Assembly (NCBI GenBank): GCA_005791875.1 | Contig: SXTU01000280.1 | Coordinates: forward strand, 1 to 56,049 | Source: Verrucomicrobiales bacterium | GTDB taxonomy: Bacteria > Verrucomicrobiota > Verrucomicrobiia > Limisphaerales > SXTU01 | Reading direction: 5' to 3' | DNA: 56,049 nucleotides | Shown here: positions 48,178 to 53,619 of the stretch, one piece after another | How positions within the stretch are numbered: the stretch's first letter is position 1 | Layout of the letters: each line of letters begins with the position of its first letter | Made by a program: the position numbers and the translations under genes | Notes under the pieces: generated by a model | Told to the model about the DNA's origin: nothing | What the model saw: only the letters and a program-made list of their open reading frames with translations | The model's database searches: none

Positions 48178-49494
48178 CTAAGCAAACAACTGCCGCGCTG
48201 GCTCGCCGCGATCCGTGATCGGCACAGGGCGGGGGCCGTCGAAGAGGTTTTTCGCAGGGTTGATGCCGAGCGCGCAGTGGATGGTCGCGTGGGCATCGGG
48301 CACGGAAAGGGGCTGGCTCACGGGCTTCTTCGCCAGCTCGTCGGTCTCGCCGACGACCTGACCAGTCTTCAAGCCGCCACCCGCAAGCGCCATGCTGAAC
48401 GCAGCGCCTTGATGGCCGCGTCCGCCGCCGCCATCGAACTCCGGCGGACGGCCGAACTCCGTCGCCACGACGATGAGCGTCTTGTCGAGCAGCCGGTTCT
48501 TCTCCAAGTCGGACACGAGCGCGGCCAAGCCTTGGTCGAGTTGTTGGATGAGGATGTGCTGGTTGAGCTGGCCGTCGTTGTGCGTGTCCCAGCCGGTGCC
48601 GTTGATGAAGTTCAGGTTGAAGGAGACCTCGATGAACCGCACGCCACGCTGCACAAGCCGCCGCGCGAGCATGCAGCGTTGCCCGAACTCGCCGCCGTAG
48701 GTCTGCCGCAGTGACGACGCCTCGGTGGTGAGGTTGAACGCCTTCATAAAGTCGCCGTTGGCCAGCGTGAAGGAAGAGCCGACGGCCTCGTCGTAGTCGG
48801 CGATGACCTTGTCGCCGGGGTTGCGGGCGGCGTAGCCCTTACGCAGTTCGCCGAGCAAACGCTCGCGGTCGGCGGCGCGCGCGGTGTTGACGTAGGACGG
48901 ACGCGTGAGGCCGGCGGGGCCCTTCTCCGTGTCGGTGAGATAGACGTAGCCGTGCTTCGCGCCGAGGAAGCCGGGGCCGCGCATAATCATTGGGTAGCCG
49001 ATGACGACGTAGGGCGGGATGCCGTCCGCCAGCGCGCCGCGCTCGTGCGCGACAAGCGAGCCGATGCTGGGATAGGTGATGGTGCCCGTGGGCCGGCGGC
49101 CCGTGTGGACGAAGTTCGTGGCGGCGGCGTGCTCGTCAATGATGTCGTGGTTCACCGTGCGTAGGAGCGCGAAGCGGTCGAGCAGCTTCGCGGTGCCCTT
49201 GAGATGCTCGCAGAGCTGCACGCCGCGGATGGCGGTGTCAATGGCCGGGTAGGCGGAGCCGGCGATTTTCTTCTGCGGGTCGCCGAGGCGCTTGGGATCC
49301 CAGGTGTCCGTGTGCGCACAGCCGCCGCCGAGCCAGATGAAGATGCAATGCTCGGCCTTGCCCTGCGGGTAGGTCTTCTTTTCCTGGGCGAAGAGCGGGG
49401 AAAGTCCGCCGAGGCCAAGGGCGACTGCGCCCGCGCCGGTGCGGGCGAGGAAGGCGCGGCGGTTCGACGAGGTGGTTTCAAGGTTCATGTTCAT
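48178..49494 (-). CDS. DUF1501 domain protein (Tat-exported)
   Basis: [93 protein letters not shown]. Confidence 0.92.
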
Positions 49495-49520: not shown

Positions 49521-49763
49521 TCAATTCCTGCCGTGGCTTAACAGCGGAAGCAACCGCTCCACCAAACGCAGTGCCCGCTCGCGGGACAGGCGGTGCAATT
49601 CTTCCCGGCAGCCCTGCCCAATCAACCAGCCGCTCGCGGAGCGCGGGGCGGGCGCTTGCTGCCGGGCCGTGCACTCCAGTTCCCGCGCGAGGTCGAGCAG
49701 CGTCGCGTGCTCCGGCATCCGGTTCACGAGGTCCATCACGGCGGCTTTGTCTTCCGGGTTCAC
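49521..49763 (-). CDS. Small hypothetical protein in the PSD1-DUF1501 operon
   Basis: GTG start overlapping the stop of the upstream 158-aa ORF (GTGA); MNPEDKAAVMDLVNRMPEHATLLDLARELECTARQQ. Confidence 0.65.
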   Translation of the reverse strand: MNPEDKAAVMDLVNRMPEHATLLDLARELECTARQQAPAPRSASGWLIGQGCREELHRLSRERALRLVERLLPLLSHGRN

Positions 49764-50197
49764 GTCAGCAAAGTCTCATTAGCACCCGGCTTCAGCCGGG
49801 TGTCATCGTCCGCGCCAGAGGCGAACCGTTTCAACGGTTTGCCACACCAACGCTCCCGTCCGCGAAAACCGTTGAAACGGTTTCCGCTCGCCTCACCGGC
49901 CAACACCCGGCTGAAGCCGGGTGCTAATGAGAGAAGGGATTTCATCTCCGCTTGGTCGTCACGCGTTTCCGAATTGCACGCAGCCTGCCCTGAGTCTATT
50001 TCTGCCAGCCGCCGCTCCATTTCAGCCCCGAACTCCGGCGTTCCGTAAGTCAGCACGCCGGGCGGTTTGCCCAGCGGCCAGATTTCCCGGGCCGTCCACC
50101 GATGCGCGGGTTTCAGCCGAGCACGCCGCAACAGACTTTTGCGGGCGGCTTCGCCCGTTCTGCGTTTCGCACGCTTGGCTGGCGGCGTCTTCTTCAC
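49760..50197 (-). CDS. Small basic hypothetical protein in the PSD1-DUF1501 operon, C-terminus encoded by a palindromic repeat
   Basis: GTGA overlap with the PSD1 stop and with the next gene; last third (APGFSRVLAGEASGNRFNGF...RLKPGANE) comes from the repeat at 49774-49932. Confidence 0.65.
   Translation of the reverse strand: MKKTPPAKRAKRRTGEAARKSLLRRARLKPAHRWTAREIWPLGKPPGVLTYGTPEFGAEMERRLAEIDSGQAACNSETRDDQAEMKSLLSLAPGFSRVLAGEASGNRFNGFRGRERWCGKPLKRFASGADDDTRLKPGANETLLT
49774..49932. repeat. 159-bp nested palindromic element, perfect 30-bp terminal inverted repeats
   Basis: TCTCATTAGCACCCGGCTTCAGCCGGGTGT (49774-49803) / ACACCCGGCTGAAGCCGGGTGCTAATGAGA (49903-49932), with internal AACCGTTTCAACGGTTT / AAACCGTTGAAACGGTTT. 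Confidence 0.97.
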
Positions 50198-53100
50198 GGC
50201 ACAAACACAAACTCCGGCGAGTTCACCATCGCCCACAGCACGTCTTCCATCCGCTCGCGCCAGTCCTTCTTCAGACGCGCCGTGGCGGTGTCGCCGAGGC
50301 GGGCTTTCTCCTCGACGGCGAGCTTGATTTCAGTGGCCTTCGCGTTGAGGTGGTTGGACCAGCTCAGGAGCTGGCTGGGGTCGTAGTCCTTGCGCACGGA
50401 CTTGCCGGCGGACACGACACGGTCGGCGTAACCGGCCTCGAGGTGGTTGCGAAAGCTCTCTCGCTCCGCGCTCGTGGGTGGGCGGGAGAGGACTCGGAGC
50501 GTCACCGCCTCGATGAGTTCCGGCAGCGGCTGCGCGCGGGTGAGCACGTCCACGAGGTCGCAATCGTCCGAGAGGCGCGTCACGCGACCGTTGCCCATGT
50601 CGCCGTTGGCGAGCACGGCGGGCTGGAGGACGTTCGGCGAATGGTCGCGCACGGAGAGCGGGCCTTGCCGCGTCTCGCGCCAGCCGAACATCAGCAGCAC
50701 GTCCGTGATGGCCTGCGTCCTGGGCATGGAGAGCGCGGGGCGGTCGCGGTCGTTCGAGAGGCCGGTGAACTCCCACGCGCGACGCGGCACGCCGAGCGTG
50801 AGGAAGTCTTTCGCCGAGCGGCGGCTGTCGTTGTCGAGCGTGAGCAGCTCGGAATCCATGCGCTTGCCGACGACGGCGAACATGGAGTCCACCAACTGCT
50901 CGGCCTGCAACCGCCGCCGCGCAGGCGAGGCGAACAGGCGGTCCGCCGGCTCGTCGGACGCGGGCGTGTGCAGGCCGGAGACGCGCTGATACGTGTGCGA
51001 GTTGAAGACGAGCCGCGCGAGGTGTTTCAAGTCGTAGCCATGCACCACAAACTCACGCGCGAGCCACGCCAGCAGCTCCGGGTGCGACGCTTTCTGGTTT
51101 TCCCAGTCGTCCACCGGCTCGACAAAGCCCCAGCCGAGGTAGCGTTTCCAGACACGGTTGACCATGACTTGTGCGAAGCGCTCGTTCTCCGGCGACGTGA
51201 CGAACGCGGCAAGCTGCTCGCGGGAATTCTTCGCGTCGCGCGCGAGGCTGGCGGCCGACTCGCCGTGCAGCAGCGCGGCGAACGGGAAGTTCGGCTCCAC
51301 CTTCTCGCCGGGGTGCAGCGTGACCTGGATGCGGCGGCCCACCTTGATGTTGGCGTTCGCGGGGATGGAGCTGCTCTTGGGCACGTCCTGCGCGCCTTGC
51401 TTGAGCATCGCGGCGAGGCTGAACAAATCCTTCTGCTTGAAGTCGTGGTAGGGCGCGTCGTGGCAGCGGGCGCACGCGAGGTTCATCGCGAGGAAGGCCG
51501 AGGAAACAATCTGCGCGCGGTCCGCCATCGGCACGTCGTTCTGCGTCGCGATGCCGAAACCCGCCGGGCCGCCGTGATAGACGCTGCCCTCCATCGCAAT
51601 CAGCTCGGTGGCGAAGCGGTCCATCGGCCGGTTGTCGAGGAACGACTCGTGAATCCACCAGCGGAAAGGGCCGGTGTTGTTGAGGGTGGGCTTGAGGATG
51701 GCGGGATTTTCCGCGAGCACGTCCTGCCAGTAGCCGACCCAGTTGTCCGCCCAGCCGGGCTGCGCGAGGAAGCGGTCAATCGCGTTCGCGCGGCGGGCCT
51801 TCGCGTCGTCGGCGAGGAAGCGCTTGATTTGCTCCGGCGTCGGCGGGAGGCCGACGGTGTCGAGCGCGAGACGGCGGAGGAAGGCGAGGTCATCCACGAG
51901 CGGCGCGGGCTTCACCTTCGCCGCTTCGAGCCGCGCGCCGATGAAGCGGTCAATCGCGTTCTGAACCGGCGTCGCGGCGGAGACGGACGGCACGGCGGGC
52001 GTGGGCTTGGCGGAAACGGCCTTGCGCGCGAGTTCGTGGCGTTGCGCCCAATACTTGTGCTCCTCGGCGGTGAAATCCTTGCGGCGCTGCGCGTCCACGG
52101 TGGCAAGCGTGGCGAGTTGAGTGTCGGTGAAAGCGGTCCAACCGGCGTCGGTGTGCGGGATTTTCTCCTTCGGCGCGAGCAGGTGGAACAGCTCGCTGCC
52201 GCGCGCCAGGCTCACCGTGAGTTCACCCACTTCCGGCTTCAGCCCCTTGCCGCCGATGATGCCTTCGAGCACGAAGAGATGCTCGCCGCCCTTGGACTTG
52301 AACGTGAGCCATTGCTCGTTGTGACCGGTGTGCGGGAAGCGCAGACCGGCGGGATACTCCGCGCCGGGCGGCTCCTCCACCTTCCCGTGCCCGCTGCCGT
52401 TCGGGATGATGAACTTCGTCTGGCCGAGCTGCTTGCCGTCCACGAAGAGCCGCGCGCTCTGGAGCGAGCGCAGCAGGACGCGATGTTCGCCCGCCGGAAG
52501 CGTGACCTTCGCCGTGGCGCGGAGCAGAAACGGGTTCGAGCGGTCCACACGCACGCCGCGCAACGAGTATTTCGTCGCCGTGTTGACGAAGCCAAACGCG
52601 GTCTCGGTGTAAACCTCCGCCGGCGCGCCGGGCGCGAAGTTCCAGTTCGGCGTGTTTGAGATGCCCTCGATGACTTCCACCTGCACGCGGTCCTTGGGCA
52701 GCTTGGCGAGGTCGAACTTCGGCGCGGGCGGGACGTGGTTGAAACGGTCCTTGAGGCTGCTCGCCGACAGCACGCGGCGATGGATGGCGACCTCGTTGAT
52801 GAGGCCGTTGAACGAGCTGCCGGCCTGCGCGCCCATCGAGGAGCCAATCCACAGCTCGTCGTCGTCCACGACCGGCGGGGCGTCGGACTTGCCGCCCATG
52901 TCCCACGTGCCCTTGACCTCCATGCCGTCAATGTAGCCCTTGATGCTCGCGCTCTTGCCGAAGGTGTAAGTCACCGCGACGTGATGCCAGCCGGAGCCGG
53001 GCGCGAAGCCGTCCGTCGAAGTCCAGCGATGCCAGTGCTTCTCAGATTCCTGCTTCTTCGCGCCAGCGACCGCGCCCTCCGCGTCGCGGAAGAGGAAGCT

Positions 53101-53619
53101 CACGCAGGCCGCGCTGTCGTCCCCGCGCAGGCGCAACGCGTAATTCTGGTTGTCCGAGGCGAAGCCCTTGTTGCCCGTGCGCCCCTTGCCGATGACATAG
53201 ACCTGCTGCCCGTCCTTGATGCTGTGCGCGAAGACCCACGCTTCGAGCGTGAGCGAATCGCCCTGGCTGAAATCCAGCGCGCTCTTCGCGCCGGGGTCCT
53301 TCACGCGGATGAACTCGCCCTTGCCGCTGAACCCCGCCGCCGTGCTATCCGGCTCGAACTCGGGGAACTCCGTCGCGAGTTGCGCGCGCTGGCCGAGCTG
53401 CACTTTGCCCTCAACCGTGCCGTTGAGCGCGGCGGCGTTCGCGCCGGGCGCGAGGTTCAGCGCCGTGCTGCCGCTGGCGTCGTTCAAGCGCCAGTAAGCC
53501 ACCGGCTTGTCCGCAAGAATCAAGTCGGCGTAACGCGAGGGTTTGGTGGCCGTGGCCGCGTCCGCCGTGAGCACGGCGGCGAGCAGCAGGAGTGCGGAGG
53601 AAGGACGCAGAACGTTCAT
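50194..53619 (-). CDS. LamG-like + DUF1549 + DUF1553 (PSD1) protein
   Basis: YADLILADKPVAYWRLNDASGSTALNLA; DGQQVYVIGKGRTG (LamG); RRLALDTVGLPPTPEQIKRFLADD; MVNRVWKRYLGWGFVEPVDDWENQKASHPELLAWLAREF. Confidence 0.92.
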   Translation of the reverse strand: MNVLRPSSALLLLAAVLTADAATATKPSRYADLILADKPVAYWRLNDASGSTALNLAPGANAAALNGTVEGKVQLGQRAQLATEFPEFEPDSTAAGFSGKGEFIRVKDPGAKSALDFSQGDSLTLEAWVFAHSIKDGQQVYVIGKGRTGNKGFASDNQNYALRLRGDDSAACVSFLFRDAEGAVAGAKKQESEKHWHRWTSTDGFAPGSGWHHVAVTYTFGKSASIKGYIDGMEVKGTWDMGGKSDAPPVVDDDELWIGSSMGAQAGSSFNGLINEVAIHRRVLSASSLKDRFNHVPPAPKFDLAKLPKDRVQVEVIEGISNTPNWNFAPGAPAEVYTETAFGFVNTATKYSLRGVRVDRSNPFLLRATAKVTLPAGEHRVLLRSLQSARLFVDGKQLGQTKFIIPNGSGHGKVEEPPGAEYPAGLRFPHTGHNEQWLTFKSKGGEHLFVLEGIIGGKGLKPEVGELTVSLARGSELFHLLAPKEKIPHTDAGWTAFTDTQLATLATVDAQRRKDFTAEEHKYWAQRHELARKAVSAKPTPAVPSVSAATPVQNAIDRFIGARLEAAKVKPAPLVDDLAFLRRLALDTVGLPPTPEQIKRFLADDAKARRANAIDRFLAQPGWADNWVGYWQDVLAENPAILKPTLNNTGPFRWWIHESFLDNRPMDRFATELIAMEGSVYHGGPAGFGIATQNDVPMADRAQIVSSAFLAMNLACARCHDAPYHDFKQKDLFSLAAMLKQGAQDVPKSSSIPANANIKVGRRIQVTLHPGEKVEPNFPFAALLHGESAASLARDAKNSREQLAAFVTSPENERFAQVMVNRVWKRYLGWGFVEPVDDWENQKASHPELLAWLAREFVVHGYDLKHLARLVFNSHTYQRVSGLHTPASDEPADRLFASPARRRLQAEQLVDSMFAVVGKRMDSELLTLDNDSRRSAKDFLTLGVPRRAWEFTGLSNDRDRPALSMPRTQAITDVLLMFGWRETRQGPLSVRDHSPNVLQPAVLANGDMGNGRVTRLSDDCDLVDVLTRAQPLPELIEAVTLRVLSRPPTSAERESFRNHLEAGYADRVVSAGKSVRKDYDPSQLLSWSNHLNAKATEIKLAVEEKARLGDTATARLKKDWRERMEDVLWAMVNSPEFVFVP

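Follow-up and report, generated by a model that had tools for sequence, protein, structure and literature searches.

A nested palindrome in a Verrucomicrobiales operon is very probably a non-autonomous element of the IS200/IS605 superfamily

The 56,049-nucleotide stretch of DNA analysed here (the window; contig SXTU01000280.1 of the Verrucomicrobiales MAG GCA_005791875.1, hereafter G000) carries at 49774-49932 a nested palindrome of 159 bp, or 53 codons, which is very probably a non-autonomous, MITE- or REPIN-like element of the IS200/IS605 superfamily bounded by tagged double palindromes. Autonomous relatives with the same ends carry a Y1 transposase, and the window element is therefore read as a non-autonomous derivative of them. 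The family is a variant of the known IS200/IS605 derivatives, with tagged double palindromes and a transposase that appears to be 1.2-like. The original prediction, made on the window alone, missed this multi-copy, transposon-derived nature.

Architecture of the element

The predicted terminal inverted repeats, perfect over 30 bp and self-complementary, are borne out, as is the second inverted pair that they enclose. The outer arms (49774-49803 and 49903-49932) have 99 nt between them and a self-complementary core in each, while the inner arms (49824-49840 and 49866-49882) form a perfect 17-nt pair; the parts are listed in Table 1. As single-stranded DNA the element folds with -65.1 kcal/mol, compared to -25.7 ± 3.1 kcal/mol for dinucleotide shuffles (z -12.7), so the palindrome structure is not due to chance. 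Rfam gave no match to the element at gathering scores.

Table 1. Parts of the palindromic element and genes of the surrounding operon, in window coordinates.
Feature	Position	Strand	Basis or remark
DUF1501 protein, operon downstream gene	48178..49494	-	Pfam; genus orthologues 86-95% identity
80-aa gene	49521..49763	-	conserved in G001 and G005 (85-87% DNA identity), internally deleted in G010
145-aa ORF (part of the predicted 158-aa ORF), putative gene, contains the element	49760..50197	-	open frame, GTGA overlaps on both sides
Left terminal tag TCTCATTAG, TTAG foot beside hairpin A	49774..49782	+	each position 92-100% conserved in 236 element ends
Palindrome A, CACCCGGC-TTCA-GCCGGGTG	49783..49802	+	C-G/G-C compensating swap among copies
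Spacer 1, 21 nt	49803..49823	+	fixed length, near-random sequence
Palindrome B, AACCGT-TTCA-ACGGTT	49824..49839	+	stems AACCGT/AGCCGT/AACCGC vary in pairs
Central spacer, 27 nt	49840..49866	+	transposase gene slot in autonomous relatives (L124, L126, L238: gene between B and B')
Palindrome B', AACCGT-TGAA-ACGGTT	49867..49882	+	inverted-arm analysis
Spacer 3, 21 nt	49883..49903	+	spacer lengths across copies
Palindrome A', CACCCGGC-TGAA-GCCGGGTG	49904..49923	+	inverted-arm analysis
Right terminal tag CTAATGAGA	49924..49932	+	end conservation across copies
PSCyt2/PSD1 (DUF1549/DUF1553) protein with LamG-like domain, operon upstream gene	50194..53619	-	Pfam

Comparison of about 115 copies gives the strand-symmetric plan TCTCATTAG-A-21-B-variable-B'-21-A'-CTAATGAGA, in which the consensus of palindrome A is CACCSGGC-TTCA-GCCSGGTG and that of B is ARCCGY-TTCA-RCGGYT, the outer spacers measure 21 ± 2 nt and the central spacer is mostly 14-23 or 27-37 nt long. 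A shorter variant of 117 bp, tags included, has a single central palindrome, usually AACTGTTTAAACAGTT. Among the copies of G000 the palindromes A and B are 86-95% identical; the spacers are near random, with a pairwise identity of 0.33 against 0.27 expected from composition. The hairpin stems are paired in 98.1% of cells, compared to 92.2% after shuffling, with 81 double changes against 23, and each hairpin varies by compensating pairs. Within an element, B and B' have the same stem type more rarely than expected (12 versus 24.6, permutation p 0.0006). Since B and B' avoid identity, often differ and each stay self-complementary, it is the local hairpins that are kept, and long-range B:B' pairing was rejected as a selected structure; pairing of spacer 1 with spacer 3 was also not above chance. 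The element ends are sharp: the TTAG foot is conserved at 97-100% per position in the 236 ends, and outside the tags there is only a weak preference for C. The original prediction had raised target-site duplication, but inspection of 11 copies from G000 revealed none apparent and no shared flanks.

A dispersed family in the order

The MAG G000 holds about 28 loci of the family: the element used as a query found 64 matching stretches, and a pattern scan for the terminal inverted repeats found 49 ends, 25 forward and 24 reverse, where the reversed-pattern control found 0. Of 97 relatives within the order, 25 carry the family, with up to 56 ends in one genome; of 288 genomes of Verrucomicrobiota outside the order, 0 do. 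A scan of named genomes returned at least 105 stretches, mostly in MAGs of Verrucomicrobia subdivision 3, Limisphaerales or Pedosphaera; among the matches listed, one is labelled Acidobacteria. Many copies of this order-specific element also lie in CAMAUZ records (L088, L094, L096, L097 and others) and RFSE records (L076, L084, L087) from MAGs titled Akkermansia muciniphila or Proteobacteria; these titles are probably mistaken, and the MAGs members of the order to which the window belongs. Half as well as full elements occur; one of the halves (tag-A-21-B only; L203:2750-2846, G005:C109) lies close to where an ORF of 352-385 aa with matches to HEAT repeats probably starts.

Autonomous relatives and their transposase

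Two loci emerged as longer units when the element ends were paired: L124 with 607 bp and L126 with 600 bp. A third, L238, came from a Y1_Tnp family search in the relatives. All three consist of tag-A-B, a gene for an HUH tyrosine transposase of about 150 aa, and B'-A'-tag; the frame of the L126 gene is apparently disrupted. The autonomous form is a single-gene transposon of about 600 bp, tag-A-21-B-(tnpA)-B'-21-A'-tag, and in the window copy, whose ends are the same, 27 bp stand in place of the gene. With the L124 protein as query, 58 of the 293 genomes searched in the order have matches at E <= 1e-25. The close clade comprises 19 loci (L252-L270) at 58-74% identity, L124's own genome apart, and 18 of the 19 have A- or B-type palindromes in their flanks, usually on both sides; subfamily variants of these are CACCTCGC, CACCCCGC, CACCCAAC and AACTGT, and most loci have TTAG or TTAA tags. 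In the distant clade (L271-L280, about 40% identity) the palindromes are different (CCCACCG..., CCCAGCG...) and often accompanied by an ATAG-like tag. These IS200-like transposases, flanked by palindromes CCCACCGTTGAAACGGTGGG or CCCAGCGATTCATCGCTGGG, probably represent another mobile palindrome family.

The transposase has the motifs DHVH and YIxxQxxHH (YIAGQEEHH), aligning as Y---Q--HH. It passes the NCBIfam IS200/IS605 model NF033573 with 62.7 bits (cut-off 55) and fails the NCBI model for REP-associated tyrosine transposases (RAYT) with 27.7 bits (cut-off 80), and its PDB matches are the solved IS608 and ISDra2-type transposases. Quentin et al. (2018; PMC6006769) give Y---Q--HH as the signature of TnpA_Y1 subclass 1.2 and describe its members as low in copy number, found mainly in cyanobacteria and Bacteroidetes, and in general devoid of terminal IS200 structures. 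We regard the enzyme as putatively subclass 1.2-like, an assignment made by motif and a length of about 148 aa rather than by the published HMMs.

The L124 protein search found no close-clade transposase in G000, a 91% complete MAG, or in its congeners. G000 has only two Y1 genes, with other palindromes, or none of A/B type, in their flanks. Both were rejected as the cognate enzyme: the IS200-like gene L206 has no A/B ends, and the palindromes flanking the RAYT-like gene L207 belong to another family. L207 (L207:1990-3040, G000:C79) encodes 255 aa amid GGGGACACTCTTGTCCCC palindromes, which fit the GGGGWSAS motif of published TIRYTs, and represents a second REP-like system of the same genome.

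Insertion in reading frames

When the lengths of 119 copies are divided by three, 52 leave no remainder, 44 a remainder of 2 and 23 a remainder of 1. Copies of the first kind are open in one phase per strand and those of the second in another phase; copies of the third kind are nearly always closed. Right-length copies read as (S)LAPGFSRV...TRLKPGANE. The length of exactly 53 codons to which the original prediction drew attention is correct but nothing special, as element lengths vary in this way; the match is a mod-3 accident.

Copies lie between genes as well as inside them. In G000 a 117-bp (39-codon) copy is in frame within a squalene-hopene-cyclase (SHC)-like gene (Pfam SQHop_cyclase), where the insertion reads ...LALHHLSLAPGFSRV...KLFKQF...DTRLKPGANES...REAAIAGV; in the orthologues of G002, G003, G008 and G009 the site is empty, and the sequence there is LALKQL-(short loop)-VREAAIAGV or close to it. 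G007 is filled with the same insertion, and a copy at this position is also present in G046, which belongs to a different family. The site is occupied in G004, G005 and G010 by a GTAG-type (GTAG...CTAC) hairpin repeat, in G006 by another insert and in G012 by a third kind of repeat. This loop (L282-L293) has been hit by several unrelated repeats, namely the present element, GTAG...CTAC and a CPHPALSP-type repeat, all of which are read through. Long open frames that match GcvP, PSCyt2/PSD1 and DUF6298 proteins in Pfam hold further copies. Comparison of L137 with L160 gives a near-empty site at which the insertion is not clean.

The window locus

The predicted 158-aa ORF runs from 50236 to 49760 on the minus strand and ends four codons past the element, and its TGA stop overlaps the GTG of the 80-aa gene in open frames; position and overlap stand as predicted. 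A likelier start of the ORF itself is the GTG at 50197: it forms a GTGA overlap with the stop of PSD1 and shortens the product from 158 to 145 aa. Excision of 159 bp would keep its frame by arithmetic. The 80-aa gene has a dN/dS of 0.28-0.38. For the 145-aa ORF, the core (residues 1-99) has no match in 97 relatives and only sub-significant scraps in 320 genomes, and the codon bias is ambiguous; it is a putative gene, with a repeat tail that may be translated. The predicted repeat-derived tail, APGFSRV...RLKPGANE, holds for the family, where the SHC-like gene provides an in-frame copy and empty orthologues, and is putative in the window ORF.

The original prediction had also looked to empty-site orthologues of the 158-aa ORF; none exists, and no natural empty site for the window copy was found among the relatives, in which PSD1 is either coupled directly to the 80-aa gene or followed by toxin-antitoxin genes. 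Nothing lies between PSD1 and DUF1501 in G003, G006 and G008, and in G010 PSD1 is coupled straight to the truncated 80-aa gene via GTGA. Ahead of the 80-aa gene there is an antitoxin-like/ParE-like pair in G001 and an antitoxin-like/PIN (VapC-type) pair in G005, with a half element (A-B) behind the gene in the latter. The 145-aa ORF occupies this small-module position. The junction (window 49521-50197; L199, L200, L201, L203) is a swap site for small modules, and GTGA coupling is kept there in G005, G010 and the window.

Age and persistence of the hairpins

No pair among 11 full copies compared in G000 exceeds 82.2% identity, so that there was no recent burst. Together with the failure to find a cognate transposase in this MAG, the 91% completeness of which must be borne in mind, this indicates that movement was not recent; the window copy is old and probably no longer moving. 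At vertically inherited sites, located by gene or flank, the differences amount to 4.4% in tags, 4.0% in palindromes, 33.2% in spacers and 11.0% in flanks. A pattern-selected set of eight pairs, biased for A, agrees (tags 2.8%, A 2.5%, B 5.0%, spacers 34.8%, flanks 22.0%); the orthologous sites are few and related. The copy in G002 is more decayed, at 6 of 72 palindrome positions. The hairpins outlast the expectation from drift, for which host function, transposase-linked correction and template-switch repair of palindromes are candidate reasons.

Alternative explanations

These inherited sites, with palindromes and tags so much better kept than spacers and flanks, are an argument for a domesticated structural or regulatory element, whose hairpins, whatever their origin, would be kept by selection for a host role in mRNA 3' ends or stability, termination or DNA-protein binding. 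The outer spacing fixed at 21 nt and the avoidance of B/B' identity point the same way. We nevertheless consider this reading unlikely. The same hairpins flank transposase genes, so that recognition by the transposase already accounts for the motifs; copies lie in enzyme genes and not just between genes, the plan is strand-symmetric, Rfam has no match, several palindrome positions of the copy in G002 have decayed, and the site pairs compared are not independent of each other.

Mobilisation by a class 2 RAYT (TnpA_REP), as for a classical REPIN or REP, is more improbable still. The family shares with REPINs (PMC3116915) and GTAG repeats (PMC3733652) the tagged, inverted doublets forming a hairpin, conserved ends, a symmetric unit and a variable spacer. 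However, neither the GTAG foot nor a linked class-2 RAYT (YIxxNP) was found for this repeat: the tag is TTAG, the linked transposase has Y---Q--HH and fails the RAYT model, and the RAYT-like gene of G000 has GGGGACAC palindromes around it instead. The intact frame and GTGA coupling would suit a third reading, in which APGFSRV...RLKPGANE evolved as the C-terminus of the 145-aa protein. The same sequence recurs at about 28 loci of G000 and across the order in unrelated contexts; these dispersed copies refute a conserved-gene tail, and we give the host-specific origin hardly any credence.

Mechanism and relation to known systems

For the favoured reading, a non-autonomous IS200/IS605-superfamily element, the transposase would recognise, in single-stranded form, the TTAG foot together with hairpins A and B in tandem, cut at the element ends and insert the element elsewhere without target duplication. 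Frame-open copies of the right length can survive inside coding regions; the window copy, close to the 3' terminus of a small ORF with GTGA coupling, has a length of 159 bp that preserves both this frame and the link to the 80-aa gene. Mobilisation by the transposase is inferred; neither transposition intermediates nor polymorphic insertions were seen in the MAG data. Also weighing against the favoured reading are the lack of the close-clade transposase in G000 and its congeners, the identity of at most 82.2% among the copies compared in G000 and the unclean near-empty site of L137 and L160.

IS200/IS605 single-gene transposons and their miniature derivatives resemble the family in the HUH/Y1 transposase of about 150 aa, the hairpin ends and the lack of apparent target duplication. 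Here each end has two tandem palindromes at 21-nt spacing and an inverted TTAG...CTAA tag, whereas typical IS200 elements have small subterminal hairpins. DHVH, Y---Q--HH, a length of about 150 aa and a low-copy transposase gene are shared with TnpA_Y1 subclass 1.2 (PMC6006769); unlike the described subclass, the present clade is from Verrucomicrobiota and has tagged double palindromes and multi-copy miniature derivatives. REPINs and GTAG-tagged REPs with RAYTs (PMC3116915, PMC3733652) are likewise assumed to be mobilised in trans, but here each unit has four (or three) hairpins, the transposase is of IS200 type and insertion is often intragenic. TIRtrons/TIRYTs (PMC3733652) also have a tyrosine transposase between double palindromes, some yielding repeat families; their hosts differ, and the likeness is one of description, not of palindrome sequence. 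GTAG repeats of Opitutus terrae have been noted to insert in frame (PMC3733652), and such insertion is known for Rickettsia palindromic elements (PMC10969869), palindromic repeats of about 150 bp that lie in frame in protein genes, each with a recognisable peptide. The family matches the latter in its in-frame insertion and element-free orthologues at the SHC-like gene. The resemblance, again by description and not by sequence, is to elements of another phylum, and here an autonomous transposase-bearing relative is identified.

A broader proposal, which we put forward tentatively as it is more doubtful than not, is that the 1.2-like TnpA_Y1, of a subclass described as having no DNA partners, forms an order-wide palindrome-mobilising system and that its miniatures are actively maintained, with hairpins long kept at fixed sites, enzymes included, while spacers are randomised, either because the structure is useful to the host or because the transposase keeps correcting it. 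The family itself connects single-strand transposases of an orphan-like branch with a concrete DNA partner and with miniature elements, in a phylum rich in uncultured members. It adds to Rickettsia a second, apparently independent case of palindromic mobile DNA in frame in enzymes, here with its autonomous relative, and its filled, empty and decayed orthologous sites offer a natural experiment on the lifetime of hairpins and its cause.
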